IMG/VR virus record: IMGVR_UViG_3300017755_000052
Location: 1 to 30,662 of that record
DNA from: a virus
Reading direction: 5' to 3' (one strand)
DNA length: 30,662 bases
The notes under the pieces: generated by a model
What the model was told of the DNA's origin: nothing
Databases searched by the model: none
What the model saw: only the letters and a program-made list of their open reading frames with translations
In this document: positions 378-17,600 of the stretch, in pieces
Layout: each line of letters starts with the position of its first letter
Position numbering within the stretch: the stretch's first letter is position 1
Program-made: the position numbers and the translations under genes

Positions 378-3300
378 TTACTTTAGTTTTATTCCTTTTT
401 TAAGTTTAATCCCACCTTTGAGTTTAACACCACTCTTAAGTTTAAAGCTACTGTTGGGTTTTTCTTCTTCTTGCTCATCTTTTATTTGCCACTTAGGCCA
501 ACCTAAAAACATTGCAACAGATTCCCAAGCTTCGTTGTCATCAGCAGTTGCATCTTTTAAATTTTCTATTTTTCTATACATTCTATCTAAAGGAACATTT
601 GTTGTTGCTGATATTACCTTAGCCATAGATTCGTAAGCTGGATTAGCAGGATTATAAGGACCCATGTTAAATACTTTTTCTCTAGCTTTCTTGCTATTGA
701 AAGGATAACCAGCTTGTTCAATACCACTTAATTTTCTTTTAATAGCAGGAGAAAAGTTTAATAACTGCTTATAAGCATCTGAATATTCTGGTCTTGACTT
801 TTTAGTTCTATCATATATATCTATTCCTAAGTTTTTAATAACCTGAACACTAACACCAGCCATACCTAAACCTCTCAAGCTAGAGTCTAACATACCGTTA
901 GCTGTTTTAACTAATTTCTTTTCTTGTTTTTTAGTAAGATCTTCGTTATCACCAGCTAGTAAAGAAAAAGTACCTTGCTGTAAAGTGTTAAAAATCATAT
1001 TTTGTAAAAAACCATAATATGCTACTCTACCAATTCTAATTCTATTGCTTTCAGCTAAGGTTTTACCTGGCATAGCTCTTTTATTAACCATGTCTTGAAC
1101 ATCTCTTTTTTGCATTCTAGCATACTGCATTGGAGTATTTACATATTGCAATATGACTCTACCAATATCACTAGATTGTTGTTGAGATATTTTACTAGGA
1201 TCAGAAGATTGCTGTGACATTTCAGAACTAGCTCTCCACTCTTTTAGTGCTTGAGCTTCTGCTTCTTTTAATGTGTATTTTCTAGGATCTGTTGGTGAGT
1301 CTACAATTCCATTTTTCATTAAATCATTAATTCTATTCCTATAAAACAAAGCGCCTCCAGAAGCTATAGCAAAACTATCAGCATACTTTGTTGGTGCATA
1401 ACCTTTTTCTAGCATATAGTTTAATACTGCTTTAGCTTTGTTTTTAGATGTTTTAGCAGCATTAGCTATTTCAGATTCAGATATATTCAATTTAAGTCCA
1501 TTACGTCTATCTACTAAGTAGTCAGAATTAATTAATTTAGAATAATCTTTCCAATATTGAGGCTGATTAGCAAAAGCTTTACCTGCTTTAAGTGGATTAT
1601 TAAAACTTTGATTTAGGAAATTAGCTGCTGATATAGTTTGAAGTAAAGCAGATCTAGTGTTTGCAAACATTGTAACTGCAGTTGATTGATTTATGTAATT
1701 CAACACATTATTAGTTAGCTTATTACCTCCGGGAGTTCTATTACTTCCATTTTTCATCCTGGATAAACTATTTTCTAAAGCCTCTCTGTATTTAGCGCCA
1801 TAAGCGGCTTCTAATTTATTTAAGTTATCTGGAGAAAATATAGCATTTTTATTGGTTTCAAACTCTTGTAAATATTTAGCTCTCTTTGTTGTTTGAAGTA
1901 AATCCATTAAATCAGTGGTTATAGTTCCTACAGCCCAATCTCTGCCTGGTTCTGAGTAACCGTCTCCTTTAGTAACTTCTAATATTTGATCTGCAAATGC
2001 TTGAAGTTTTGGATTACTTTCAATAACTTTATTTAGTTCTGCAAAATCAGTTTTAGAAAGTCCGGGTATTTCCTTACCAGTTTGACCCCACAGATAAGCT
2101 CTTACAGCTTGCTCGTTAGTAAAACCGCTTTCAGTCTTTAGTTTTAAATCTTTTGGAACTTGCAATTGTTCTTTTAAAGCTTTAAAATCAGCAAATAAAT
2201 TAACTCTATCTTGTGATAAATTCTCTGTAGCTCTATTGTAAGGATCTAATAAGTTTTTTTGATAAAAAGCCATATGAGCTTCACCCTCTTTACCTTTACC
2301 TAAAGTAGTATATAGTAGTCCAGTAAAATCTTCAGCAGATGAAGGTATAAAAAATCTTTGTCTTTTTTTAGTTGCACCTACTAATTTAGCCTTAACATCT
2401 GAATAAACTTTTTCACGACCAATACCAGAAGATTCTTCTAAGTTTTTATTAAATTCTTCAGATAAATTAAGAGAAGCTTTAGGTTTTTTAACTAATTGAG
2501 CAGTACCATTTAAATCATAAGCATTAAAAGCTGCTTTAGCGGCGTCAATATTACCAATAGCGTCATCAAAAAATGATATCTCATTAAAGCCTTCAGAATA
2601 CTTTTCCACCATCCAATCAGCCTTTGCCTGTCCACTAGAATTGCCTAGTCCAACTACATTTTCTTCTTTAAAATTAGCTCCTTTAGATTTGAGCCACTTA
2701 AACAAAGGTCTTTGAGACTTTGGAGATCTAGCTGTTAAAACATAAACGTTATCACCGCCTCTTTTGTTTATCATCTTTTTAGCCGCTTCCAGAAGTGGAC
2801 CAGGTTTTCCATCAACTACTCTATCAAAGTCTTCAAAATTCATTTCCCAACCTTGATCTTTTAATTTCTCGCCACTTTTAGCAAACTCAGCAGCGTTTAA
2901 AACTTTTATTTTTCCTTCTTTAATTAACTTTTTAGTTCCACTTGTTGGTTGTCCTTTTTTGTTTAACTTAACTTTAACACCATTAGACGCATAAACTTTA
3001 CTGTTTGAATATAATAAAACATCGTCAGCATCAAGAACTCTTAGTTTTGGTAAAGCTTTATCTAAATCAATAACTTTTATAGGTTTTGGTTTTACTTTAT
3101 CTAAAGGTATTCTACTATTAGAGTTAGCTTTATCTATTATTCCTAAAGGCTTTATAGTGCCTTTAACATCTAAAGTTTTTCCTTTGTCTTTACCTAGAAC
3201 TTCACTAACTTCCGTAACGTTTTCTGGCCTAGTTGTTAAACCAGCTTCATTAATAACCTCAAGATTGTTTGTAACAACTTCATTAGTTTCTTTTATATTA

Positions 3301-6300
3301 TTTAATATTCGTTTAACTTCAACGCCGCTACTACTCAGTTCATTATCAGGTATTTTATTTATAGATTGTTTAGCTATTTCTATTCCTTTTTCATTAATTA
3401 TCATATCAGCAACTGTAGATGCTTGATAATCTCCTGACAAAATTATTGTATTAGCAGCTTCGTTTTTGCTTACAAAAGTATTTATATCTTTATTTTTAGA
3501 AAACTGAAACCCTCCTCCTTTTGCATCTTTTAACTTTTGATTTTGCTTAGTAGTCAACGCTTGAGAAAAATCTGAAACGTGGTTTTTTATTTCTATTTCA
3601 AGTTTTTCAGGATTATTTTTATATTTTGCTAATATTCTTAAAAATCCCATGTTGGCATTAGATAATTCTTTCATATGCTCATTATGGAACTTTGTTCCAG
3701 TAGGATTGTCTATAGCGGGAGCTTCTCTTAAAGAAAGATATTCCATAGGAACTAATCCTTTTAATATGCTTTCTTGAGAATTAGTTTGCATTTGTAAAAA
3801 AGTAAAAATGTTTTCTATAGTTTCTTTAGTAGGGTTTTCTAAATAGTTTTTAGCTAAATTGTTATATAACAAGCTAATTGCTTTTCTATTAGCTGTCATA
3901 GTTCTTTCATAAGCGTCAGGCAACATTTTGCCATTTGCATCAACAAGTTTTGGATTACTTAATAATTGTCTACCTCTCGATGTTAAATACTGCTTATATG
4001 CTAACTTATCTGATGTTTCCCAATTAGGAAATTCTTCTTTAGCTTCTGCTAATGCTTTTGACCAACTCTTTTTTAATCCTGATTCATTGTAATTTGGTTG
4101 CCAAACATCATACATCCAGTCCTCAACCTCTAATGATGTCTTTTCATTACCAAACACATCGTTAAATTCTTTAACTGGCATATAGTTAGGATCTACAAAA
4201 TCTTTTAAATTTTTATCAAACTTTTGATATTTTTCAGGAGTAAAACTACCTTTTATTTTACCTTTGCCTAATGTTATTTCTAAATAATTTCTAAAATCTG
4301 GAGGTAAAGAACTTAAAGATGGAAATAAAGATAATATTTTTTTATTACTTTTAATAAATCTAGGTGCATAATCTTCATATGTTAAATTAACAGATCTATT
4401 ACCTAAAGCCTTGTAATCTAATTTCCCCTTTTTAAAGCCAAATATTTTTTCTACTTCAGGGAAATTATCTTTAAAAAACTTAATTTCTTTTTCAGCTTTT
4501 TCTTGAGCTGCTTTTTCTATTTTTGAATCTGCTTTTTCTATAACCCTAATATCTTCTTTAGCTTTGTTCCACCAATCTAGTATTTTATTTGCATCTCTAA
4601 AATCAACTATTAAACCTATTTTTAAATCTGTGTCTTTTAAACCATATTTCTTTGCTAGCTTTTTTCTATCTACTTTTTTTCCTAAATTTTCAAAATAAGT
4701 AAGCTCTTCCATGAAACCTTCAAGAGATTTTGAAGGTAAAGCATCTGATTTACCAGATTTTAAATCTTCTATTTGATTAGCTGTTAATTCTTTTACTCTT
4801 CTTATTTCATAGTTAGTTATGGCTTTGCCTTGTTGGTGTATAAGAGATTTTATTCTTTGATCAATTTTACCGTTATCTTTTAAAGTTTCAAAAACACCAT
4901 CTTTTATACCAAAATATTCTAAAAATTTAGCTTCGTCAAAAGGTAGTTTAGTTTGCTCAACATTACCTTGCTTGTTGTTAATTCTACCTTTTTGCTCATA
5001 AAAAGCATTTAATAAATTTGGTTGAATACCAGTAGAAGTTCCTCTAATTTTTTCACTAGCACCTTTATCAGTTATGTTTTTAGGTAAATTATCATATAAA
5101 GCTCTAGCATTTTCACTAATAAATTTTTGAGAAAGTTCAACTTCTTTACCTGACAACCTAGTAGATGTTTTACCTTTAAAACTACCATTCTCATTGTTTA
5201 CTTTCTTTTCACCAACCCCAAACTCTGCAGCAATGTTAGACTTGTCTAAAGTAGTTTTATAACTTTCAATACCTTCTTCAGCAAGGTCTAATTCTATAAT
5301 TGCATTTTCTAGTTCTTCAGAAGATTTTTCAACATTTTTATATAACCTAGTTGGAACTATTTCTCCTTTATTATCTATTAGACCAGCTTCTACATCTCCT
5401 AATATTCCACTCTGCTTGAGACTTGAAGAAGTGGGTTCTGTTAAATTAGCCATAGCTATTTCACCTGCTTCACCACCTAATCTATCCGATACAAACTCCA
5501 ACTTACCTTCAGAGTTTTTCACCATTATTTTTCCTCCTTTTTCAAAAGCGTTAACCAGCTGGCTACTAAAACCTCTAGGCTGGTTTATATACTTACCAAA
5601 ACTACCTCCACCTTCTGAAGGATCCCATCTACCAGTGTATTCATATAGTTGTTTATCTAAATAATCCATAATACCTTCATAAGATACTTCTCCGTATTTT
5701 TCTTTGAGAACTCCAGTACTTCCAAAGCTTCTTCTTTCGTAGTTATTTATTAAGTCATACTTTTTAGCTTGATTATTCATGTATAGATTAAATCTATCTT
5801 CGTCTGTAACTAATTCTTTTAAGCTTTTTCCTGGATTATCTATTGCTCTTTCAAAAATTCCTTTTTCAATCTTTTCATTTTCAGCTACAATTTCATCAGT
5901 AGTTTTTCTTGATAAATCAAAAGAACCTATAGCTTTCTTAGCTTCGTTAAACTTGTACCCTTCTCTTGCAGTTTCAGCTTCAGCATTACCCTCTTCTGTT
6001 AACCTTTCTCTTATATTAATTTTTTCTAATTCGTCACCTACTTTATTTAAGTTCCCATAAATACCGGATACTAAATTATTAACACTTTGGTTTTTATTAC
6101 TACGCTGAACTATATTAGCTATTTGTCTTACAAGCTGATTTACATTTGTAGGTACATTGTTTTTTATACCTAGTTCTATACCAATACCTCTAAATTCTAA
6201 TGATATTTCTTTTAATAGTGTATTAGCTACATCTGGGCTACTATAAAAAACTTTAGGATTAGAAAGATATTCACCAACAAAAGATAAATATTCATTTGCC

Positions 6301-9300
6301 ATTTCTCCAGTTGTTGACTGTTCAGATAAATTTATATTATATTTTTCTTTAATTGCATCATACAATTCTTTACCTCCTGTCTCGCCAAAGCTAGTGTTTT
6401 TAAATATCTCATCTATTTTAGTAATGAAGTTTCTTTTAGCCATAGGATTAGCCTTGTAGTAGGCTTCAGTAGCCACATGCCCAAATTCATGAACTCTAAC
6501 ACCAGGATTCCACCTACTGAGATCAAATGCCATTACATTAGTCTCTGGATCATATTGTGCTTTAGCTTTTTGATTCTCTTTAGAAAAGTTATTATTTCTA
6601 AATTGCTCGCCACTACCAAACTTTACTTCAACACCCTCAAAAGATGGATCAATTAATTGTATTGCTTTAGTCCAGTTATCAGTATACTTTTCTTTAAAGT
6701 TAGTTTGAAACTGTTCAAATTCTGAATTATATTTTTCTGGATTTGTTTCTTTTAGTTTTATATTAGGAGGTGTTAATTCTTTTATATGCATTTCTGCATT
6801 AATTAAGTTGTCAACATTAAATTTATCTACAGCATATTGATCATATTTTGCTTTTTCTGCTTCATTTAGTTCATCGTATTTCTTTTCTTTACTAGAAGGC
6901 TGTTCTATTATTCTCCCGTCTGAATCAACTTTTTGTATCCCTTGCTCTTTGCCTGTTATTACATCCATTTTATACTGTAACTTGTCAGAAACTCTTTGTT
7001 TCATTCCAGTAGTCATTAAGTCTGTTTTTTTCAAGTGCATTCCTCCAAAAAACCCAAAAGTCATAGCATTAACTATATATCTTTGCTCTTCCTCATCCCA
7101 ACCATCTTCGCTATTGTATAATTCTTTAAACTTGTTACCAAAACTAGCAGCATCACCAGTCATGAAAGCTTCAAAACTAGGCTCTGCTACACCAGCTACT
7201 TCAGAAGCCAGTGTCATTACAGCACCATTTTTTATTACAGCATTAAACATAGGCTGCATATATGTAAAATTCTTTTTAAAAGGAATAAAGTTTTTAGTAA
7301 GCTCTCCAAAAGTATAAAAACTAGTTCCTCCTAAAGGCTTCATATCTAATATAGTCTGCATCTTAGCTTCTTCTACTATAGATCCAATAAAAAGTCTACC
7401 TAATGGCGATAATGTTTTAACCCATTTAGCGTAGCCAAAAGCGTTTAATACACCACCACCCATTGCTAGCGCAGGCAGTTTAGGTATAAATGTTCCTATA
7501 CCACCGGAGGCTTGCTCTAAAACATTTTGTTTAATATTTTCTTTTTGAATACCTGTAAGCTTTATACTACCACCATCTGCTAAGCTTTCTAGTTCTGTAG
7601 CACTAGCCTTTATAGCTGAATTAATGTTATCAATATTAGCTCTAGCACCACCTCTTTGTCCTTCTACAAAATACTCTGCATCATCTGGGTTTGAGTCAAA
7701 TACAATCATATTGTATGTCTCTTTAACAGTGCTCTTAAGTAAGTTTTCCCAAAATCCAGGTTTAACTATAGACCCAACATCTACATTTCCAGCGTATAAG
7801 TTCCTATAGGTTTGAGCCAAAGTTTCTATTTCATTAGCTTCTTCATTGTACATCTTAATTGCGTCAACATCTTTATCGCTAGCCATACCAGACATCTCAT
7901 CAAAAAAGCCTGAAAAGTCTTCAGAATCAATACCTAATCTTCTTAAATCAAATAAAGATATTTTTAAATCACCATTTTTATCAGGTTTTAAACCAGCTTG
8001 TTTTAACTTAGGCCAAGCCATGCTTGATCCATACTTCACACTCCAACTCTTAGGATCACCATTAAATTTTAACGTTATATTAGAGTAATTGCCTTTTTTG
8101 CTAAATTCTTGTAGATTTTTTAGTTGATTATTGAACAAAACGCCTATAGCTTCTCTTTGAGATATTTTAGGGTTACTTTCTAAAACCCTAGTTAAAGCAG
8201 GTTCTAAATTATTAGTTGCATTTTGAGACTTTTGCTTTAGATCATCAACAGTACCTTGAGACATACCGTATCTATTAAAAAACTGGCCTACTAACTCAGA
8301 GTTTGTAGTTACTGTTTTTATTTCTTTATATTTCGCAGCTCCAGGTTCCCCAGGTATAGATCCTACATTAATTATTTCAGTGCTAGTCTCTGTTCCTGCG
8401 TCTTTAATTTGACTAAGCTTTGCATCGTATTGCCTTTGAACGTCGTCCCTTTCTCTTTTTAGTATTTTAGCTTGATTAGATCTTCTTTCATCATTAAACT
8501 CTTTAGATTCTTCTTTATTTTCATTCTCTTCAATCTTATTGTTATAATAATTAAGCTGCTTAGTTAATTCTATTTCTTCAAAATTTAGTTTTTGAATTTC
8601 TTTTTGCTTTGGTGTTAAACTAGCATCAAAAGAGTTGATAACAAATTCTTCAAAATCAGGATCTAAATCAACTGAGTTAGACTCTAAAATGTTTTTCATT
8701 TTATAATCTTGCTCTACTTTGTATTTATTAGATTCTCTTAGTTTTTCATATAAAAAATTAAAAGAACTAGGATATATTGCTAAATTACTTTCTTTTTGAA
8801 GCTTATTAAATAAACTTTCTTTTATTCTATCGTGATCCTTATCGCTTATAGTAAAAGATTCGGCGCCTAAACCTTTCTCATAACCCACGCCATACATATA
8901 TGGGTTGTTGAATGCTTCTCTTTGTAATATATCTAAGTCAGTTATTAAATTAACTACTTCTTTTTTATTTGCTGGTTTAGCATTTTGATAATTTTCGGTT
9001 TTAAAAGTATCTTTAGAGTAAGTTCCATCTTGATAAACTCCAGCTTTTATAACTTCACCTAATCTTATATTATCAAAAACACCACCACTTGATATTTTTC
9101 CTATTTTATTTTTTATAAAAGAACTATCATCGTCTTTTTCAGGGTTATCATTTATAAAATTAATAAAATTATCATAAGCTGTTTTACTTTTTTCTAAAGC
9201 ATCTTCCTCTGGAGTCAAATCATCAGATAGTAGATCGTTGTAGGCCCCACTTTTTTTACTATTATATATAGTGCCTAACTCTATTATTTTATTGTTTCCA

Positions 9301-9749
9301 GAACTAATATTTGTTGCTTTAATTTCGTCACTACCAGGTGTTGCTTGTTCAAAAGTAAAACCAGGATATAGTTCTCTTAAATCAGACACTATCTCTTGTT
9401 CTTCTTTTAATTGAAATTCTTCAAAAGATATTTTTGCTTCAACTTCTTTAATAGGTTTTATTTCATAAACATCTTTATGTATTTTCAAATAATCTTCTAA
9501 AGTTTCATTTTCTTTTAATTTCCCATTTATTTCTTCAGCTGTATATGTTTTTCCTTTGTATTTATATTTAGATTTAGCAGGAGGATCAGTGTCATTTCCA
9601 ACTTCAATTACTTCAGTTTCTTCAACCTCTTCAGTATCGTTGTCAATATCGGCTTCAGCATCTGGTTCGTATTCTTTCATTTTTAAAATGAAGTCATCTT
9701 CTGATAATCCTTGATCTATTAAATCTTTAGCATAATCTTCTCTTGTCAT
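378..9749 (-). CDS. Giant (3123 aa) polyvalent internal virion / ejection protein with HExGH metallopeptidase motif and HAD-like domain
   Basis: This is the last gene of the structural operon and takes up nearly a third of the window. It starts 2 bases after the previous stop. By position it corresponds to the T7 gp16 slot, a protein carried in the head and injected into the cell; that is an inference from order and size. What can be seen, in order: an acidic N-terminus (residues 1-60); a Lys/Glu-rich helical part to about 500; a glycine-rich hydrophobic stretch at about 745-870, which could be membrane-active; HEFGH at 1087-1091, the zinc-binding motif of metallopeptidases, with NEYLSFVGEYL (E1153, E1160) as candidate third ligand; a patch around W1375 (GRWDPSEGGGSFGKYIN) that recalls sigma-factor region 2; a HAD-like phosphatase fold with D2240/D2242 (VLDADDVLL), T2339 (VLTARS) and D2395/D2396 (FFDDAIGN); a long helical C-terminal part containing QYVNTPMQYARMQKR; and a basic hexad-repeat tail. 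This architecture matches what are called polyvalent proteins of phages. No transglycosylase motif (as in T7 gp16) and no RNA polymerase motif was recognised. Confidence 0.9.
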   Translation of the reverse strand: MTREDYAKDLIDQGLSEDDFILKMKEYEPDAEADIDNDTEEVEETEVIEVGNDTDPPAKSKYKYKGKTYTAEEINGKLKENETLEDYLKIHKDVYEIKPIKEVEAKISFEEFQLKEEQEIVSDLRELYPGFTFEQATPGSDEIKATNISSGNNKIIELGTIYNSKKSGAYNDLLSDDLTPEEDALEKSKTAYDNFINFINDNPEKDDDSSFIKNKIGKISSGGVFDNIRLGEVIKAGVYQDGTYSKDTFKTENYQNAKPANKKEVVNLITDLDILQREAFNNPYMYGVGYEKGLGAESFTISDKDHDRIKESLFNKLQKESNLAIYPSSFNFLYEKLRESNKYKVEQDYKMKNILESNSVDLDPDFEEFVINSFDASLTPKQKEIQKLNFEEIELTKQLNYYNNKIEENENKEESKEFNDERRSNQAKILKRERDDVQRQYDAKLSQIKDAGTETSTEIINVGSIPGEPGAAKYKEIKTVTTNSELVGQFFNRYGMSQGTVDDLKQKSQNATNNLEPALTRVLESNPKISQREAIGVLFNNQLKNLQEFSKKGNYSNITLKFNGDPKSWSVKYGSSMAWPKLKQAGLKPDKNGDLKISLFDLRRLGIDSEDFSGFFDEMSGMASDKDVDAIKMYNEEANEIETLAQTYRNLYAGNVDVGSIVKPGFWENLLKSTVKETYNMIVFDSNPDDAEYFVEGQRGGARANIDNINSAIKASATELESLADGGSIKLTGIQKENIKQNVLEQASGGIGTFIPKLPALAMGGGVLNAFGYAKWVKTLSPLGRLFIGSIVEEAKMQTILDMKPLGGTSFYTFGELTKNFIPFKKNFTYMQPMFNAVIKNGAVMTLASEVAGVAEPSFEAFMTGDAASFGNKFKELYNSEDGWDEEEQRYIVNAMTFGFFGGMHLKKTDLMTTGMKQRVSDKLQYKMDVITGKEQGIQKVDSDGRIIEQPSSKEKKYDELNEAEKAKYDQYAVDKFNVDNLINAEMHIKELTPPNIKLKETNPEKYNSEFEQFQTNFKEKYTDNWTKAIQLIDPSFEGVEVKFGSGEQFRNNNFSKENQKAKAQYDPETNVMAFDLSRWNPGVRVHEFGHVATEAYYKANPMAKRNFITKIDEIFKNTSFGETGGKELYDAIKEKYNINLSEQSTTGEMANEYLSFVGEYLSNPKVFYSSPDVANTLLKEISLEFRGIGIELGIKNNVPTNVNQLVRQIANIVQRSNKNQSVNNLVSGIYGNLNKVGDELEKINIRERLTEEGNAEAETAREGYKFNEAKKAIGSFDLSRKTTDEIVAENEKIEKGIFERAIDNPGKSLKELVTDEDRFNLYMNNQAKKYDLINNYERRSFGSTGVLKEKYGEVSYEGIMDYLDKQLYEYTGRWDPSEGGGSFGKYINQPRGFSSQLVNAFEKGGKIMVKNSEGKLEFVSDRLGGEAGEIAMANLTEPTSSSLKQSGILGDVEAGLIDNKGEIVPTRLYKNVEKSSEELENAIIELDLAEEGIESYKTTLDKSNIAAEFGVGEKKVNNENGSFKGKTSTRLSGKEVELSQKFISENARALYDNLPKNITDKGASEKIRGTSTGIQPNLLNAFYEQKGRINNKQGNVEQTKLPFDEAKFLEYFGIKDGVFETLKDNGKIDQRIKSLIHQQGKAITNYEIRRVKELTANQIEDLKSGKSDALPSKSLEGFMEELTYFENLGKKVDRKKLAKKYGLKDTDLKIGLIVDFRDANKILDWWNKAKEDIRVIEKADSKIEKAAQEKAEKEIKFFKDNFPEVEKIFGFKKGKLDYKALGNRSVNLTYEDYAPRFIKSNKKILSLFPSLSSLPPDFRNYLEITLGKGKIKGSFTPEKYQKFDKNLKDFVDPNYMPVKEFNDVFGNEKTSLEVEDWMYDVWQPNYNESGLKKSWSKALAEAKEEFPNWETSDKLAYKQYLTSRGRQLLSNPKLVDANGKMLPDAYERTMTANRKAISLLYNNLAKNYLENPTKETIENIFTFLQMQTNSQESILKGLVPMEYLSLREAPAIDNPTGTKFHNEHMKELSNANMGFLRILAKYKNNPEKLEIEIKNHVSDFSQALTTKQNQKLKDAKGGGFQFSKNKDINTFVSKNEAANTIILSGDYQASTVADMIINEKGIEIAKQSINKIPDNELSSSGVEVKRILNNIKETNEVVTNNLEVINEAGLTTRPENVTEVSEVLGKDKGKTLDVKGTIKPLGIIDKANSNSRIPLDKVKPKPIKVIDLDKALPKLRVLDADDVLLYSNSKVYASNGVKVKLNKKGQPTSGTKKLIKEGKIKVLNAAEFAKSGEKLKDQGWEMNFEDFDRVVDGKPGPLLEAAKKMINKRGGDNVYVLTARSPKSQRPLFKWLKSKGANFKEENVVGLGNSSGQAKADWMVEKYSEGFNEISFFDDAIGNIDAAKAAFNAYDLNGTAQLVKKPKASLNLSEEFNKNLEESSGIGREKVYSDVKAKLVGATKKRQRFFIPSSAEDFTGLLYTTLGKGKEGEAHMAFYQKNLLDPYNRATENLSQDRVNLFADFKALKEQLQVPKDLKLKTESGFTNEQAVRAYLWGQTGKEIPGLSKTDFAELNKVIESNPKLQAFADQILEVTKGDGYSEPGRDWAVGTITTDLMDLLQTTKRAKYLQEFETNKNAIFSPDNLNKLEAAYGAKYREALENSLSRMKNGSNRTPGGNKLTNNVLNYINQSTAVTMFANTRSALLQTISAANFLNQSFNNPLKAGKAFANQPQYWKDYSKLINSDYLVDRRNGLKLNISESEIANAAKTSKNKAKAVLNYMLEKGYAPTKYADSFAIASGGALFYRNRINDLMKNGIVDSPTDPRKYTLKEAEAQALKEWRASSEMSQQSSDPSKISQQQSSDIGRVILQYVNTPMQYARMQKRDVQDMVNKRAMPGKTLAESNRIRIGRVAYYGFLQNMIFNTLQQGTFSLLAGDNEDLTKKQEKKLVKTANGMLDSSLRGLGMAGVSVQVIKNLGIDIYDRTKKSRPEYSDAYKQLLNFSPAIKRKLSGIEQAGYPFNSKKAREKVFNMGPYNPANPAYESMAKVISATTNVPLDRMYRKIENLKDATADDNEAWESVAMFLGWPKWQIKDEQEEEKPNSSFKLKSGVKLKGGIKLKKGIKLK
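381..446 (-). repeat. C-terminal hexapeptide repeat of the giant protein
   Basis: The last 22 residues (3102-3123) consist of nearly four copies of a six-residue unit: FKLKSG, VKLKGG, IKLKKG, then a final IKLK. Hydrophobic and lysine residues alternate, giving a strongly basic tail that could form a beta strand. The DNA copies have diverged at synonymous positions, so the repeat is maintained at protein level and does not look like a fresh DNA expansion. The scaffold-like protein of this phage also ends in a basic tail (SSKLKFKSKK). Binding to DNA or to the capsid wall is a guess. Confidence 0.8.
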
Positions 9750-9751
9750 AC

Positions 9752-11629
9752 TTACGTTGTTTGAGATCTGTAAAAGTTTCTTAATTCATCTTCAGTGGAT
9801 TCTGGTAAAACTACTTCAACTACATCGATATCTTTTAGCCCTGTTTTCTTTAAGTTAGCTTTTTTAATGTTTTCATACTCTTTAGATTTTGATAAAGCAT
9901 TTAAAATGTCCATTTCAAAAGCGTCATAGCCATTGAGAAAGTCTTTAGCTTCCCAACCACCTACGCCTTTAACGTAGAATGCATCAAGTACTTTAGCATC
10001 TAATGGTACATTTTTATCACCATGTAGTTGTATTGCAAGTTCTTCAGCTATTGTGTCTCCTTGGTAATATAATTTATTATTTGCATCTGGTGAAGAGCTC
10101 ATAGAATTTAATAATGCAGCAAGTGTAGAAGGTTTCTTACTTAATTCTGTCCAATGGGTTTTTATATCTTCTAAATCAATTTTTCTATTTCCTTCAGGTT
10201 TACCTAAAGCGGTATTTATTGCTTTAAGTTTAACTTTTTGATTAGCTTCTTGTTGTGTTTTGTCGTCGCCGTCGCCTCTTGGATATAAAGTTATACCATC
10301 TTCTAGCGCTACGATTCGCGCTGCAGATTGTATTTTAGTTAATTTTTCCTCTTTTAATTGAGTTTCAGTTACGCCATAATTACTAATTGAAGTTTCACTT
10401 CCATAAGCTAATTTCATTGACTCTAGCATCAACATTTTAGCTCTTTCATTTTGTTCTGGTGTTCCTTTATATATTCGCATTTCTGGATCACCATTCGGCC
10501 CACCCATCATTTGCCAGTTGTTTTGAGCATAGTTATAACCTGGTATGGAGCCTTGAGTACTATTTAAACCGCCTCCATCTATCCACAACGCGACCTCTTT
10601 CTTCATTACTTCATTTGCTTTATCAAAAGATTTTATAGTTTGCCTTTTAGTAACTGAAGAAGTTCCATTTTTTTCATTTTCGCTACTATATTTAGAAACA
10701 CCATTGTAATGTGATTTAATTCTAGAATTCCAAACAGCTTTTAACATGTCATCGAATGGTTTTGCTTTAGTGACTCCCATTAAAGAACCACCTTGACCTA
10801 GAAGTTTATTATATCTCTTGTAGGATACATTTACACTTTTACCATTTTCATCAGTATATCTAAGCATTGATGTACCGTCAGGAGACTGCCCAGGCATTAA
10901 AGTTGTGAATCTATTTTGATTAGTTGAAAAAAGTATATCTCTTTCCATAGCAGCTCTTACATCAAAGTCAGGTTGGCCGTCAAACAGCAACGTGCCTTGA
11001 ATACCTGCTTTGTTAGGTATAATTGATCCATCAAATTTAAATGCTGTTTTTGAAGCTATTGACTCATTGTTTACTAGTGATGTTATTACAGGAATCTCTT
11101 CAGTCATTTGCTTTATTTGATTAACTATAAAGTCTCTTTCAGGTGATCCTTTTTCGTGTTTACCTAATTCATTAACAAGAAACGTTAAATCAGTTTTCAT
11201 TGATAATTCAATACCTCCTTCTCCAACTATTTGTCTAGCTGCAGCAGCTATTTGATCTTGTGTCATATTAGCATACTCAGGTCTACCACCTAAATAATTA
11301 TCACTCTGAGGATCTAAGCTGTATTGTATAGCATTTCCACCAACATCTCTTAATGTAATCTCGTCATTTTGAATAGTTTGGTTATTAACATCTACAATTG
11401 AAGGAACTTGATTTGCTTTTGATTCTAACTCTGCATTTTCTTTTAGAATTATTCTTTTAGCTTCATCTTCTTTTAAATCTTTTTTAATTCTTTCCTGCTC
11501 TTCTTTTAGTTTTCTTGCTCTATTGGCTTCTACGTCTTTAATTATTTTAGAATTTATGTCTTCAATAGCTTCAGGTATCATACCTAAAGTTTTATCTAAT
11601 ACTAATCCTGGTTGTCTATAAGTTCCCAT
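9752..11629 (-). CDS. Putative internal virion protein, 625 aa (gp15 position)
   Basis: No family motif was recognised. The N-terminal ~90 residues are strongly charged and probably coiled-coil (EANRARKLKEEQERIKKDLK and following). The rest is a mixed globular sequence, and the protein ends in an acidic stretch before ESTEDELRNFYRSQTT. It sits with 1 base of spacing behind the gp14-like gene and 2 bases before the giant gene, so the three are probably translationally coupled and made in related amounts. In T7-type podoviruses this slot holds the second ejected core protein, and that is the most likely role here. The call rests on order and size only. A tail or neck role is possible. Confidence 0.7.
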   Translation of the reverse strand: MGTYRQPGLVLDKTLGMIPEAIEDINSKIIKDVEANRARKLKEEQERIKKDLKEDEAKRIILKENAELESKANQVPSIVDVNNQTIQNDEITLRDVGGNAIQYSLDPQSDNYLGGRPEYANMTQDQIAAAARQIVGEGGIELSMKTDLTFLVNELGKHEKGSPERDFIVNQIKQMTEEIPVITSLVNNESIASKTAFKFDGSIIPNKAGIQGTLLFDGQPDFDVRAAMERDILFSTNQNRFTTLMPGQSPDGTSMLRYTDENGKSVNVSYKRYNKLLGQGGSLMGVTKAKPFDDMLKAVWNSRIKSHYNGVSKYSSENEKNGTSSVTKRQTIKSFDKANEVMKKEVALWIDGGGLNSTQGSIPGYNYAQNNWQMMGGPNGDPEMRIYKGTPEQNERAKMLMLESMKLAYGSETSISNYGVTETQLKEEKLTKIQSAARIVALEDGITLYPRGDGDDKTQQEANQKVKLKAINTALGKPEGNRKIDLEDIKTHWTELSKKPSTLAALLNSMSSSPDANNKLYYQGDTIAEELAIQLHGDKNVPLDAKVLDAFYVKGVGGWEAKDFLNGYDAFEMDILNALSKSKEYENIKKANLKKTGLKDIDVVEVVLPESTEDELRNFYRSQTT

Positions 11630-11630
11630 A

Positions 11631-12680
11631 TTATTTTATTCTTTTAAAGTCAACATCTACTTTAGAGTAATCAACCATGTCATATCCATCATCGCCAACT
11701 AAAACAGCTTCTTTAGGCACTTCGTTAGACATTACACCCTGATAAGTACCTTCTTTATTTATATAGTCAAATTCATATATATTTAATCCAGATTTTGATT
11801 TACCAATTTTACTTATATTTTTCTTTAATCTTATATCACTACCAGTAAACTGCGGTCCACTAAAGAATTGCGATGTAAAACCACCACTAGAACCAAATCC
11901 ACCACCTGCGCTACCACTTGAGCCGCCACCGCCTAGTTTACCAAATTGTCCACCTGCAACACCTAACAAACCAGTTGCTGCCCCAGTGAAAGAAGACATA
12001 GCGTCATTTCTATATTGTTGTTCTTGTGCTCTGCTATTATCATATAAACCTTGCATTCTGTCTAATTCTGTATTGTCTCTAGTTTCTTGAGCATTAAACA
12101 TCATTGCTTTTCCTTTACCCAGTTGCCCTTGAACTCTAGCATTTTCTGCTGATTGCATTGATTCAACTCTACTTTTTTCAGCAGCTATCTGCTGTTGTAA
12201 TACTTGTTCACCTTGAGCTCTTAATTTTTGATTTTGAGTTTCTTGCTGCTCTATACTTGCTGAAATACCTTGTTTACTTTTTGCTGCCGCCTGAGCTAAA
12301 GCGGTTGCCCCACCAGCGCCCATTCCGCCAGATCTTAAAGTATCTAAAGTGTTTGCTAGAGCTTGATCAGTTTGCTGTGCTTCAAATTCAGCTGCTTGAG
12401 TAGCAACTTTTAAATTAGCATACGGGTTGCTAAACTCACCAGAATTATCTTCAAATTGAAAAGCAGATGATCCTGAATATGGATTTTCTATAGGTTGTCT
12501 TTCAAAATTGTTTAAATTATCTAAAAGAGCGGTGCTGTCGTTAGCTGTATCATTTGCTTTTTTATTAGCTATAACTCCATTAACAACATTTATTCCTACA
12601 CTTAATAGTCCTAAGGCCACACCTATTCCTTTTTTTTCTCCTTTATTTCTCCTTAGTTTATTGCTTATTAAATGCCCCAT
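11631..12680 (-). CDS. gp14-like internal virion protein fused to an S74 self-cleaving chaperone domain
   Basis: The first ~40 residues are basic then hydrophobic (GIGVALGLLSVGINVVNGVIA, about 18-38). A long Ala/Gln-rich helical part follows (about 85-230, with AQAAAKSKQGISASIEQQ and AEKSRVESMQSAENARVQG). A Gly/Ser linker covers about 231-279. This resembles T7 gp14-type ejection proteins in size, composition and place (just before the gp15 and gp16 slots). From residue 280 the sequence becomes a short peptidase S74 / intramolecular chaperone domain with SDIRLKKNI at 281-289, then NIYEFDY, GVMSNEV and GYDMVDYSKV. S281 and K286 have the spacing of the Ser-Lys dyad of the endosialidase chaperone, which cleaves in front of the serine. 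S74 domains normally sit on fibres and tailspikes, so an alternative is a trimeric tail-needle or fibre protein. Confidence 0.8.
   Translation of the reverse strand: MGHLISNKLRRNKGEKKGIGVALGLLSVGINVVNGVIANKKANDTANDSTALLDNLNNFERQPIENPYSGSSAFQFEDNSGEFSNPYANLKVATQAAEFEAQQTDQALANTLDTLRSGGMGAGGATALAQAAAKSKQGISASIEQQETQNQKLRAQGEQVLQQQIAAEKSRVESMQSAENARVQGQLGKGKAMMFNAQETRDNTELDRMQGLYDNSRAQEQQYRNDAMSSFTGAATGLLGVAGGQFGKLGGGGSSGSAGGGFGSSGGFTSQFFSGPQFTGSDIRLKKNISKIGKSKSGLNIYEFDYINKEGTYQGVMSNEVPKEAVLVGDDGYDMVDYSKVDVDFKRIK
11634..11843 (-). other. S74 intramolecular chaperone domain with expected self-cleavage site
   Basis: Residues 280-349 form the domain; the serine codon is at 11838-11840 and the dyad lysine at 11823-11825. 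In known S74 proteins the domain helps a trimer fold and is then cut off just before the serine. Here that would leave a 280-residue virion protein and a 69-residue fragment. The domain is on the short side for the family, but the conserved blocks are in the usual order: SDxRLK, the YEFDY block, the GVMSNEV block and the GYxxVDYSK block. Confidence 0.8.
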
Positions 12681-12718: not shown

Positions 12719-14554
12719 TTAAGATGTTTGAATAAAGTTTGAAGCTACAGAAAATATTTCTTTTTCACTTCCAATTTCAGTAATTGAATCTGTAGATATT
12801 TGAACAGTGGCAAAATACCCTTTTATACCACTCATTTTATTTCCAAATATAACTTCTCCTGGTCTAGGAGGATAGTTTGAGTCTGTTTGTTTTTGAACTA
12901 AAGCAGCCATATATTTGTTTTCTTTTCTATTAAAGCCAGCATACTCGTAGGGAGGTTGTGTAGCTAAAAGGCCTGTGTTATTAGGTGTATGAGACTCATA
13001 TCTACCTTCTAAATAGCTATAGACTACATTTGTTTTATCTTGAAAGCTGTTATAAATATTTTGATTATTTATAGTTTCCATAAAATCCTCACCTTCAACA
13101 TCACCATCAAAAGATTTTATTTCCCAACCACTATTCCCTTCATAACTAACTGTATTAAAGTTTTTACTAATCAAGGGAGATTTATTAAATATAAAAGTTA
13201 CACTAGCTGAATTATAAGGTTGTTCATACCAAAATCCTCTTCTATTAGCTGTAACATTATCATAATGCAAGTAAAGATCTTTTATATTAATAGTAAAAAG
13301 TGCGTTTTCTACACTGAATATCTTAGTTGGCTTAAAAGAAAATCTACTAGTCCAGCCATTTATACTTTCATTAAAATTTAAAGTTTGATAAGTGGAAGTA
13401 TCATTACTAGTAAATGTAGAATTCTTCTGCATAGATAGCAAGTAGTCCTTAGAATGAACATCATAACCACCGTTAGCTCTACCTCTATCAGGACTTACAA
13501 ATCTCATTATAGTTTGTACATCTAAAGTAACTTTTTTACTTAATGTTATTTGAGTTTGAGTAGGGTTTCCAGGAGCAGGACTTTCTATATCTACAATATA
13601 AGCATCAGGAACACTAGGAAAAAAAGATATTCCATCAGTGGAAAATTGAAAACCACTACCTATTTGTAGGTTTCCTGTTTCCCCTTCACCTCCTCGTATA
13701 CTGGAAGTTACAACATTTATACTAAAATAATCACCAGCAAAAGCTTTAGACCTTGTAGCTGTTACATAATAGTTTTTAAAATCATTATCAATTTTTCTTA
13801 ACTCATCTCTAAAGTAGCTAGTCATACCATAATTGCTTATTGGAGTTATGCCATCTCTAGAGAGCCTTAATACTACATTTCTATCTTTATCTGTAAAATA
13901 TTTTTGAAAACCATAAACGCCAAAAGATTCAGGGTTTTGACTTATACCAAACTCACCAAGATAAGGTACTATTTGTCCAATAACTACTCCCGGAGGTAAA
14001 GTTTGTGTACCACCTTCAGATGTATAAGTAACATCCTTATCTATTAAAGCTCTATTTACTTTATTTTCTTGAAATATTAGTAGATTAGTATCCTCTGCAT
14101 ATAATCTTTGAATTGAACCGCTTGCTGGGTCTAAGGATCTAGTTATATTCTCTCCTATTGAAAAAACGTTAGTATCATTAGCTCCTGTTCTAGAATTATA
14201 AACGCCTGAGTATATTAAACTATTAAATCTTCGCTCTTGCGCGTTGACTTCTTCATCTAAATATGCTCTAACACCAAAATCAACAGTAGCATTTCCAAAC
14301 CCACCTCTTATTCTGGATTCTTCTATATAAAAGTTACTTCTAAGTCTATTTTTAATAACATTACCTCCATATTCCCAGAAATTATCCTCAGAACCTGAAG
14401 GACCTGTTTCGTTTAAATTATTATTACCTAAACCGCTTACAGTATCACCAAATTCAACAGGTCCTGGAAATGTTCCAGAATTTATACCACTTCCAGTTTC
14501 TAACTTTTTTGTCCAAAAAGAATTAAAATATTTGATTTCTAATATTGCTCCCAT
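12719..14554 (-). CDS. Tail / virion surface protein, 611 aa
   Basis: This is a beta-rich protein with many Asn, Ser, Thr, Tyr and Gly residues and no membrane segment. Recognisable blocks are IEESRIRGGFGNATVDFGVRA (about 75-95), the stretch around RFNSLIYSGVYNSRTGANDTNVFSIG, LYAEDTNLLIFQENKVNRALIDKDVTYT, and YFTDKDRNVVLRLSRDGITPISNYG. I know these blocks from large tail proteins of uncultivated marine podoviruses and crAss-like phages, but cannot name a characterised homologue with certainty. It follows the 1595-residue tail gene by 51 bases and precedes the gp14-like gene, so a role in the distal short tail (muzzle or nozzle, possibly surface contact) fits. A stop codon in frame at 14582-14584 rules out an upstream start. 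Confidence 0.8.
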   Translation of the reverse strand: MGAILEIKYFNSFWTKKLETGSGINSGTFPGPVEFGDTVSGLGNNNLNETGPSGSEDNFWEYGGNVIKNRLRSNFYIEESRIRGGFGNATVDFGVRAYLDEEVNAQERRFNSLIYSGVYNSRTGANDTNVFSIGENITRSLDPASGSIQRLYAEDTNLLIFQENKVNRALIDKDVTYTSEGGTQTLPPGVVIGQIVPYLGEFGISQNPESFGVYGFQKYFTDKDRNVVLRLSRDGITPISNYGMTSYFRDELRKIDNDFKNYYVTATRSKAFAGDYFSINVVTSSIRGGEGETGNLQIGSGFQFSTDGISFFPSVPDAYIVDIESPAPGNPTQTQITLSKKVTLDVQTIMRFVSPDRGRANGGYDVHSKDYLLSMQKNSTFTSNDTSTYQTLNFNESINGWTSRFSFKPTKIFSVENALFTINIKDLYLHYDNVTANRRGFWYEQPYNSASVTFIFNKSPLISKNFNTVSYEGNSGWEIKSFDGDVEGEDFMETINNQNIYNSFQDKTNVVYSYLEGRYESHTPNNTGLLATQPPYEYAGFNRKENKYMAALVQKQTDSNYPPRPGEVIFGNKMSGIKGYFATVQISTDSITEIGSEKEIFSVASNFIQTS

Positions 14555-14605: not shown

Positions 14606-17600
14606 TCAAGTAATAGTAAATTCTAAACTTGATAAGTTTTGAGAAGTAGGGTATGTATAAGTCAAGCCTTGTCCACTAGCATCTACCACACTATATATTA
14701 ACCTATAAGTAGCGGCTGGAGCTGTTGATCTTACCGTAAAATAATTTTCATTTACATAAAGAGGTATTGCTAAAGGAACGCCGTCGTTTAAGTTTCTAAT
14801 AAAACCATTAACACCTTGCCCTAATTCGCATAATAAAGCTATATCATTTATAGGATTTGTAATATCTATACAACTAACTATAGACCAAACCAACCCTTGC
14901 ACTGTTTGTATTTCAGCACCTCTAGCGTATACACCACCTACAGTTCCTGCACCAATATTCACAAAGCTGCCATTTCTATATTTTGGACTACTAGCATTTG
15001 CGGTTGCTGAAGTTCCATCATTACCCCAAAAAGTTCCACCAACCCCAGACACAATGTCTGTTATACCTGTTTTACTACCTGCGCTAACAAGTACTGGTGT
15101 TTTGTTTTCTAAAAATAAATCTTGAAAAAGAGTTGTTGTATTATTACTACCATTAGGTAGAGATGAAGAAGTTACTAGCGTTATAGAGCATGTAAAATTT
15201 CTAATACTAGAGTCTAATAAGAATACTTGAGGAGTATCTGTTAAATATATTTTATATATTGTACTAGATGGTTGAACAGCGTTTGATATTAAAAACTTAC
15301 TACTTACATCAGATCCATTTTCATCAGCAACAGTCATAGATAAGCTAATTATGTTAGATAAAGGTATAGACTGGTTTAAAGCGTTAACAGGCTTTATACT
15401 CATTATAAATGGATCTATAGCTGAAGTTGGCTCAATAGGTAGAACTGGTGTTAAACCTGCGAGCCAATATGCATCTGTTAAAGGAGTTGTAAATTCATTG
15501 AAATCAATAGATGATGTTAAAAATCTAGCTGGAATATTTTCATCACTATTATTTGCTATATCATAATTCAATCTATCTATTAAACCAGTAGTAGATGTTT
15601 CCCAGTATATATCTAATAACGATTCAAAGGCTTCAACTTCTACTACAGCTAAATTAGTCCCACCTGTAATACCGTTTGTATAGTCTTGCATTCCAATACC
15701 TAAATTTGGTTGGGAGGATGAGTAATTTGAAAAATTTAAACCTACACCAGTATTAACAGGTCTTCCATAAAAATCTGAAACTGCAGAATACGATCTTACT
15801 GGTGTTGGGGTATTCACTCCTTTATTATAGTAAATATGAGAACTTCTGAAAGGACTGTTTGACTGTACAACAGAATATGGATTATCAGGTTGTTTGTAAA
15901 CAAGAGATGTGTATACGTCTAAAAGTATTGAATCACTAGCTTCTCTAGCTGCTACATTATAAATTTCTTCCATATTTCCAATGTAAACAACTTCGTCATG
16001 TTCACCATTTAAAAGAACTTGCCCATGATAGTAGGTTTCTTCAGAAAATTTCCAATCAGCTGTTCCAGCTCCGTCAAGGTCTGCATCATACCAAAGAGTA
16101 CCAAACTGAGAAACTCTAGGAAACAACTTTTGCTTACTAGAAGAGTATTGAACTTGTGAGTTGCTTTCAGTAACTTGAGCATTGATTTTATTTACATTAT
16201 CCCCTATTATAGAATAAGTAGTTAAAGCATTAGTATTTGTTCCTATAGAATCAAACCCTTGGGTTGACGTGGCAGCTTTACCAAGTAAAGGCTCTCCATT
16301 TAACGTTACAGGCATGTATATATTATAATAATCTTGCATTTTTTGTTTAACAACAATCTTATAACTATAAAATCCTAAAATATTTTCTTCATTAACGCTT
16401 TCTATTGTAACCGTAGTCAATACAGCTCCCGATGTTAAATTGTTAATATTTACCGTATCTCCTGCTTCGTAGCCTTTGCCAGAGTAGTTAACTGATACAG
16501 CAGTAATTTCCCCACCTGATACTGGTAAAAATGTTGCTGGATCATATATTATTGGAGTTGCAACTACATCTACAGTTAGTCCAGATCCAGATGAAGATAC
16601 GTTAGTTGTAGAAACGTTTTTTGAATTAACATAAAAAGCGTTAGCATCCGAAGTAAAAGTAAAATCTTTAACACTACCACTAACAGTATAAATCCCTGGA
16701 TAACCTTCTAAATCTGTAATCTCACTAGGTATTACAGAGTTCCACAACATTTTTAAACTGTCACCAACCCAATTTACTATGTTTCCTGTATTAGATGTAA
16801 TAGGCTCGTATATGTCATCTCCGTTAAAAAATTCATTAAAAATTGTATCACCGCTGAATATAACATTATTACTTAAGTCTGTGGATAATTTAGGTGGAGC
16901 TAGTATAACGTCTGTTTGTCTTCCAAACCTATCAGATAAAACAACTCCTACTTGATACTCTCTATTCTGTTTTAAATTATGATTTGGGTACTCCACGGTG
17001 CTATTAGCACTAAATTTATCGCTAATATTTAGTTTTCTACTTACTCCAACACTATAATCTAAAGAATTTGGAGAACTATGTCTATTTAAGAAATTACCAT
17101 AAATAACTCTATTACCACTCACTTCTTGACTTAAAGCTCTTATTGGTACTTGATCAGAGACTCTAGTACTTTCTCTAGTTGGTAAAGTTTTAAAAGGTTT
17201 GTCACCATCCCATTTATAAATATAAAGATTACTGTTGTTATTTAATATAGACTGATCACTAACAGGTATGTTTTTTAATGCTAGTATGTTTGTAGAAGAA
17301 GAATCAGAGTATATTATTTCGATACTTTTTATTTTCAACTGTTCTTCTATTTGACCTACCTGTAACTGAGAATTATCAATATACGGCATATTAATAATTA
17401 AATTTACTAAACAAGTGTCATTTTCATATAAAAAATTAGTAGTATCAAAACCAACTTTACTCATATCGCTAAATGGCGAAGCTCCTTCACCTATAAATTC
17501 ATCTCCAGATTCGTTGAAAGCTGCTAATGTATCATTTATTTGATAAAAACCGCTTTGTTTTGGTTTAAAAATTGGTTGAGTAAAAGGTGATATTAAAGAA

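Follow-up and report, generated by a model that had tools for sequence, protein, structure and literature searches.

What does a phage do with a protein of 3123 residues that carries the motifs of a zinc peptidase and of a phosphatase in one chain? The window analysed here, by which we mean the whole stretch of 30,662 bases, raises this question at its first gene. The source record is viral and is listed without end repeats, and a single open reading frame at 378-9749 encodes the giant protein on the minus strand, the plus strand there being full of stops. The initial annotation had described the same frame and chain length, and both stand, with the gene now assigned to the minus strand.

Operon context and probable ejection

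Genes upstream of the giant are assigned by PHROGs to a terminase, a portal, a probable major capsid protein and several virion proteins. The operon then runs from a muzzle protein (611 aa) through proteins of 349 and 625 aa to the giant, all on the minus strand (Table 1). The order of muzzle, 349-aa protein and giant, with the giant last, is kept in at least 119 loci of relatives; the 625-aa protein is recognisable in just 8 of 225 such loci. The giant had also been placed in the gp16 slot of the operon, which holds for position only; the operon is nearer to those of crAss-like phages, through its muzzle domain, and of Pachyviridae and elemo phages than to that of T7. The portal is 50% identical to that of MW202828, a phage from the Manatee Spring metagenome, 48% to that of Maribacter phage Panino, 40% to those of Flavobacterium elemo phages and 27-32% to those of Cellulophaga and Tenacibaculum phages of the Pervagoviridae and Pachyviridae. 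Since relatives of the giant sit in contigs of metagenome-assembled genomes (MAGs), from Flavobacteriaceae or others, and in viral metagenome contigs, we infer that a Bacteroidota host is likely; the source is likely an uncultivated, marine-type, short-tailed phage of Bacteroidota type.

Two neighbouring genes showed features of their own. The 349-aa protein closes with SDIRLKKNISKIG, a segment weakly similar to Peptidase_S74 (endosialidase chaperone; E 0.0033), which is odd for an ejection protein. In addition, phrog_14478 (1474 positions) is divided between a 1595-aa protein (14606-19393, minus strand) and the 611-aa protein, so that a tail protein found elsewhere as a single chain seems to be encoded by two genes in this phage.

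Table 1. Features of the giant protein, its operon and the cap inserts of its relatives. Positions are those of the window unless a relative (L number) is named.
Feature	Position	Strand	Basis
Giant protein gene, 3123 aa	378-9749	-	Last gene of structural/ejection operon; place kept in relatives
Fast-evolving 625-aa protein, probable second ejection/cargo protein	9752-11629	-	Position
349-aa virion protein (phrog_6121), probable first ejection/cargo protein	11631-12680	-	PHROGs; position; weak Peptidase_S74-like C-terminus
611-aa protein, tail gate, crAss_MUZ_C C-terminal domain	12719-14554	-	Pfam E 7e-7, above cut-off
Zincin-like metallopeptidase core, aa 1004-1165	6255-6740	-	AF2 model; weak zincin fold matches; conservation in 56 members
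HEFGH, H1087-H1091	6477-6491	-	H, E and H are the sole invariant columns of the 56-member alignment
E1153, predicted third zinc ligand	6291-6293	-	At least 90% conserved among 56 members; invariant in another alignment
Uncharacterised region, aa 1990-2095, with E2024-H2025 and basic residue 1997	3465-3782	-	Conservation
E2024-H2025	3675-3680	-	Near-invariant Glu-His, as conserved as both recognised active sites
HAD phosphatase domain, polynucleotide-kinase 3'-phosphatase-like, aa 2234-2420	2490-3050	-	Conservation; profiles; AF2; fold matches
HAD motif I, LDADD, D2240 predicted nucleophile, D2242 predicted acid/base	3021-3035	-	Sequence; conservation
HAD motif II, LTAR, T2339	2727-2738	-	Sequence; conservation
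HAD motif III, lysine K2376	2622-2624	-	100% conserved
HAD motif IV, FFDD, D2395/D2396	2562-2573	-	Sequence; conservation
All-helical conserved C-terminal domain, aa 2430-3090, polyvalent-protein (LPD)-like	480-2462	-	Conservation; AF2; BFVD
Cap-inserted P-loop kinase (AAA_33/zeta-toxin-like)	L031:9299-10021; L088:3343-4080		Profile match
ART-PolyVal-like cap insert	L011:9503-10030		Sub-threshold match, E 0.0017
Cap insert of unknown kind	L196:10091-10663

The gene order mirrors that of PhicrAss001, in which muzzle gp44 is followed by cargo proteins gp45-gp47, and this favours reading the giant as ejected cargo; gp45, gp46, gp47, gp49 and gp50 of that phage were detected in virions by mass spectrometry (PMC10172136). 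Compared by position and not by sequence, the giant resembles gp45, gp46 and gp47 in standing right after the muzzle, in its size and in its expected ejection through the tail. In contrast to gp47, gp49 and gp50, which are RNA-polymerase-associated (PMC10172136), no RNA polymerase domain was found in the window giant. The ejected virion RNA polymerase of N4 offers a second parallel, in which about 3,500 residues include an HExxH domain and, after it, a C-terminal domain that is large and helical (PMC12633501, PMC5512222), although the window giant carries a HAD phosphatase in place of a polymerase. T7 gp16 (PMC8954989) is likewise the last and largest of three ejection-protein genes and has a large helical C-terminal part; the window giant, however, is 2.4 times larger and has peptidase and HAD domains, and the transglycosylase that the initial annotation had reported absent, in T7 gp16 an N-terminal lytic one, does not appear in Pfam or PHROGs scans either. 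Position, size and fold together make it very probable that the giant is packaged in the virion and ejected as cargo.

Predicted peptidase and phosphatase domains

Taken alone, the window giant gave nothing of note against Pfam, no curated polyvalent or peptidase profile matching it, and its sole PHROGs match was to polynucleotide kinase (E 0.065, aa 2321-2412). A phmmer match to dCTP deaminase (E 0.23) was rejected as chance. Relatives were collected with the C-terminal ~790 residues as seed, which returned 278 from IMG/VR, and two further seeds enlarged the set. The main set comprises 161 non-identical, near-complete proteins, and all counts given here are of related sequences, not of independent events.

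The peptidase signature lies where the initial annotation had put it, with HEFGH at residues 1087-1091 followed by E1153 and E1160. By composition alone, HExxH arises in 0.55% of shuffles of the window giant. That the motif is chance or vestigial, with only the HAD and C-terminal domains functioning, would fit the weak model of the zincin region and the loss of the first His in some relatives that keep the region. Conservation makes this very improbable: 74 of 75 relatives have one HEx(2-3)H each ahead of the HAD domain, where shuffling predicts 0.67, and although the N-terminal halves can otherwise barely be aligned, in an alignment of 56 diverse HExxH regions with 10-61% identity to the first the main conserved residues are H, E, H and a single further column at 90% or above, the Glu equivalent to E1153. 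The distance from HEx(2-3)H to HAD motif I in the 75-relative set is always 854-1278 residues. Among the 161 relatives, 149 have exactly one HExxH or HExxxH, none has more than one and 12 have neither. The HExxxH form occurs in three relatives (HEILGH, HEMVGH and HEITGH) and is already known for polyvalent metallopeptidases (MPTases; PMC5512222).

An AF2 model built from 11 sequences (mean pLDDT 58) places HEFGH on a helix, as the zinc-peptidase claim of the initial annotation implied, in the element order of a zincin: a helix, three strands, the HEFGH helix and a later helix bearing E1153. The MPTase core of Iyer et al. is described as a helix, three strands, an HExxH helix and a Glu helix (PMC5512222). 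Fold matches of the model were weak (Foldseek E > 1; VIA Z at most 3.8 for zincins), with the zinc peptidases anthrax lethal factor, selecase and IrrE/PprI recurring among them, and single relatives gave weak profile matches to Peptidase_M90 (3.3e-4), Peptidase_M78 (2.4e-3) and Reprolysin_3 (0.02). The domain with HEFGH is thus most likely a zincin, its fold supported rather than proven by sequence and model.

In L014, L113, L121, L208, L212, L219 and L220 the first His is replaced (EExxH or QExxH) and the sequence context kept. Because several of the 12 motif-less relatives have lost the first His and retained the region, some lineages appear to carry a dead peptidase site, and peptidase activity would be dispensable there. 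Splitting the zincins into separate types failed, as 146 of 149 chain into one set at E<=1e-6. Matches of the zincin-alignment profile to influenza HA2 and other coiled coils in the PDB were rejected as an artefact of a helical flank. Upstream of the zincin, residues 750-772 and 837-855 form hydrophobic, Gly-rich stretches that are possible membrane-insertion segments; stretches stronger than those of the window lie upstream of HExxH in 85 of 149 relatives.

The phosphatase motifs also lie at the residues first named, D2240/D2242 in LDADDV, T2339 in LTAR and D2395/D2396 in FFDD, and K2376, the motif III lysine that had gone unmentioned, is 100% conserved. Together these six residues are conserved at 96-100% over 79 proteins. 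Motif I reads DADDV in the window and DFDDT in nearly all relatives, with both catalytic aspartates retained. Motifs II and IV are 57 residues apart in nearly all members, and motifs I and II 78-79 apart, versus 98-99 in the window. In an AF2 model of residues 2199-3095 (mean pLDDT 78) the HAD core is confident, and DxD, T/S, K and DD follow in order on a Rossmann-like core, with motifs at the ends of strands 37-42, 137-141 and 192-197 of the model.

The assignment as a HAD-phosphatase-like domain not only holds but can be sharpened, since the nearest solved structures of the AF2 model by VIA are polynucleotide-kinase 3'-phosphatases. These make up all of the top five matches (Z 11.4-12.8, rmsd 2.2-2.5), namely the T4 Pnkp phosphatase (5uj0), Pnkp1 (4xrp, 4xru) and T4 Pnkp again, the best being 5uj0 (Z 12.8, rmsd 2.4 A over 127 residues); other HADs reach no more than Z 11.2, a modest margin. 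Among profiles, phrog_415 (polynucleotide kinase) matches 35 of 42 members (best 2.2e-8) and TIGR01664 (DNA 3'-phosphatase) 14 of 45 (best 5.8e-5), while DUF2608 matches 35 of 45 and the HAD profile 13 of 45; a profile of the domain found nothing meaningful in the PDB by sequence. Like the T4 polynucleotide kinase/phosphatase (PDB 1ltq, 5uj0), the domain has the DxD, T/S, K and DD motifs, and the folds superpose. With the fold class assigned by model, we suggest tentatively, at somewhat less than even confidence, that the domain is a nucleic-acid 3'-phosphatase. That both domains are real is, on the sequence and model evidence, highly probable.

Cap inserts, a third motif and the C-terminal domain

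Five relatives (L031, L041, L061, L088 and L095) have about 200 extra residues between HAD motifs I and II. In L031 and L088 this cap insert is a P-loop kinase (AAA_33, 5e-17; Zeta_toxin, 8e-14); the inserts of L041 and L061 resemble one by eye, and that of L095 is assigned from its length only. The window giant lacks the P-loop kinase and has about 20 extra residues between the two motifs. In T4 Pnkp the kinase precedes the HAD domain, whereas in these relatives it lies inside the HAD cap. Judged by sequence, the cap is an insertion site, holding a P-loop kinase in relatives and an ART-like domain in one. A module similar-looking to the cap insert of L196 is found between the HAD and C-terminal domains in L018 and L058, and this difference in placement suggests module movement.

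Between the two enzymes lies a third conserved site. E2024 is present in 159 and H2025 in 153 of 161 relatives, with a basic residue at 1997, and the Glu-His (EH) pair stands at a like distance from the HAD domain in 140 of 148, against 21 expected. Searches of Pfam and the PDB with residues 1990-2095 recognised no family; weak matches to collagenase and beta-lactamase (E 0.03-0.08) were rejected. One alignment in which the EH pair is invariant by the way it was built was left out of these counts.

The C-terminal domain has about 100 invariant positions over 42 sequences. Its BFVD fold matches include homologues from uncultured viruses (36% identity), among which one bears the name UDP-N-acetylglucosamine kinase. 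Further away come proteins named as large polyvalent protein-associated (LPD) or ART-PolyVal (E 1e-5 to 1e-7) and the structural protein of Gundel_1. Several unrelated enzyme domains in one giant chain from a late virion operon support the polyvalent class invoked at the outset; the fold matches to polyvalent proteins point the same way, with no Pfam profile match to an LPD domain in the window giant. Among the VIA matches listed, the C-terminal domain has none in the PDB; as the HAD domain fills that list, this is no evidence of a new fold.

The giant family has hundreds of members, mostly from marine viromes, without a cultured full member. Among isolate phages, a search of 50,697 records turned up no protein with the C-terminal domain of the giant, and tblastn queries from the N-terminal half and the C-terminal third of the giant gave no match; nor was virion proteomics found for any member. 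A scan of genome contigs returned 13 MAG contigs only, with no prophage in any isolate. An IMG/VR scan seeded with the N-terminal half found no relatives, which we attribute to its diverging too fast. A cultured counterpart is gp074 of Tenacibaculum phage Gundel_1 (NC_062747, Pachyviridae), which shares HEFGH (at 1337) and the C-terminal core (2104-2310, E 7e-13) but has no HAD domain; gp074 and its elemo counterparts (gp18) are annotated as 'structural protein', a label that we do not treat as proteomics. Among giants matched by position, HExxH is present in MW202828 (L002; 3859 aa, HEFGH at aa 1615 and 2500) and elemoE (HEIFH), and absent from those of Panino, phi38:1 and phi46:3.

Possible roles of the enzymes during infection

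In the scenario that we favour, and consider moderately probable as a whole, the giant is an ejected polyvalent cargo protein that the zincin cuts and whose HAD domain acts on nucleic-acid 3' ends or another phospho-ester. The giant would be packed in the head and exit by way of the portal and muzzle, either before the DNA or together with it, its helical C-terminal domain serving packaging or contact with the DNA or ejectosome. During or after ejection, the zincin would cut the giant and free the part comprising the HAD and C-terminal domains. Once in the newly infected cell, this part may remove phosphate from the 3' ends of nucleic acids, or from another phospho-ester, and would thereby protect or repair the incoming genome. 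That there is one zincin per chain, set at a stable distance ahead of the unit made up of the HAD and C-terminal domains, favours self-processing after entry. The conserved, polynucleotide kinase (PNK)-like HAD domain, joined to a kinase in some relatives, favours activity on the ends of nucleic acids in the new host.

For polyvalent proteins, self-processing, host cleavage and processing before packaging have all been proposed (Iyer et al. 2017, PMC5512222), and by analogy the peptidase could serve purely for self-processing; for the window giant, we place self-processing just short of an even chance. Cleavage of host proteins by the zincin, with the HAD domain and inserts modifying host targets, would instead make the giant the multi-enzyme injected effector that the initial annotation had envisaged at work in the host cell or envelope; its purpose would be to disarm defence or take over the host. 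Such roles are widely predicted for polyvalent proteins (PMC5512222), conflict-system zincins are among the weak structural matches, and the rapid evolution and uptake of kinase and ART-like modules seen in the N-terminal two-thirds and the HAD cap would suit effectors directed at the host. However, the strong conservation of the HAD core and of the sequence around it is unlike that of a fast-evolving effector, and one zincin per protein, stably spaced from the HAD domain, suits self-processing at least as well, so we regard an effector role as unlikely.

Head maturation or assembly, the alternative raised at the outset, would have the zincin act before packaging as an internal protease on the giant or neighbouring virion proteins, with the HAD domain a structural passenger. 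Phage P1 offers a parallel in DdrB, believed to be cleaved prior to packaging by the MPTase that it carries (PMC5512222), and the gene of the giant does lie in a late structural operon. Its position downstream of the muzzle is nevertheless that of ejected cargo, and catalytic residues conserved at ~100% would be needless in a passenger HAD, which renders this role improbable. Counting against the favoured scenario of ejection and self-cleavage, neither enzyme is universally needed: the peptidase motif is missing from 12 of the 161 relatives, in some of which the site is degenerate, and 13 lack the HAD domain, which 148 have. A FastTree phylogeny of the C-terminal domain requires no fewer than 4 changes of state for HAD and 8 for HExxH, which indicates that both are strongly retained yet dispensable modules.

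A more specific form of this scenario is end-healing delivered by the virion, in which the 3'-phosphatase would repair the ends of the incoming genome, or cleaved host or phage RNA, at entry, and the cap would dock a kinase or ART-like domain, giving a complete kinase-phosphatase in some lineages with the EH domain beside it. We consider this possible but rather doubtful. Zeta toxin, a sugar-nucleotide kinase, fits the inserted kinase just as well by score, which leaves room for a sugar-nucleotide reading beside end-healing.

The class to which the giant belongs is known, comprising polyvalent proteins and the N4 virion RNA polymerase with its HExxH and large helical C-terminus (PMC12633501). 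The giant shares with polyvalent proteins (PMC5512222) the format of a multidomain late-operon protein with a single probable zincin, of HExxH or HExxxH type, and a helical, probably LPD-like C-terminus, and its relatives share the ART-PolyVal-like and zeta-like modules. It differs in its PNK-type HAD domain, the text of PMC5512222 containing neither 'phosphatase' nor 'haloacid'. In our literature search, we did not find a description of a PNK-type HAD domain with a cap docking site, of the EH motif or of the giant family itself.

In summary, the giant is a protein of the polyvalent class, but of a large, hitherto undescribed family. Few components of tailed phages are as poorly understood as their ejected giant proteins, and this family offers conserved residues to mutate in two enzymes and a third site, while Gundel_1, as a cultured cousin, allows tests of packaging and self-cleavage. 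If the HAD domain does heal nucleic-acid ends, the virion would be delivering a repair function for the incoming genome.
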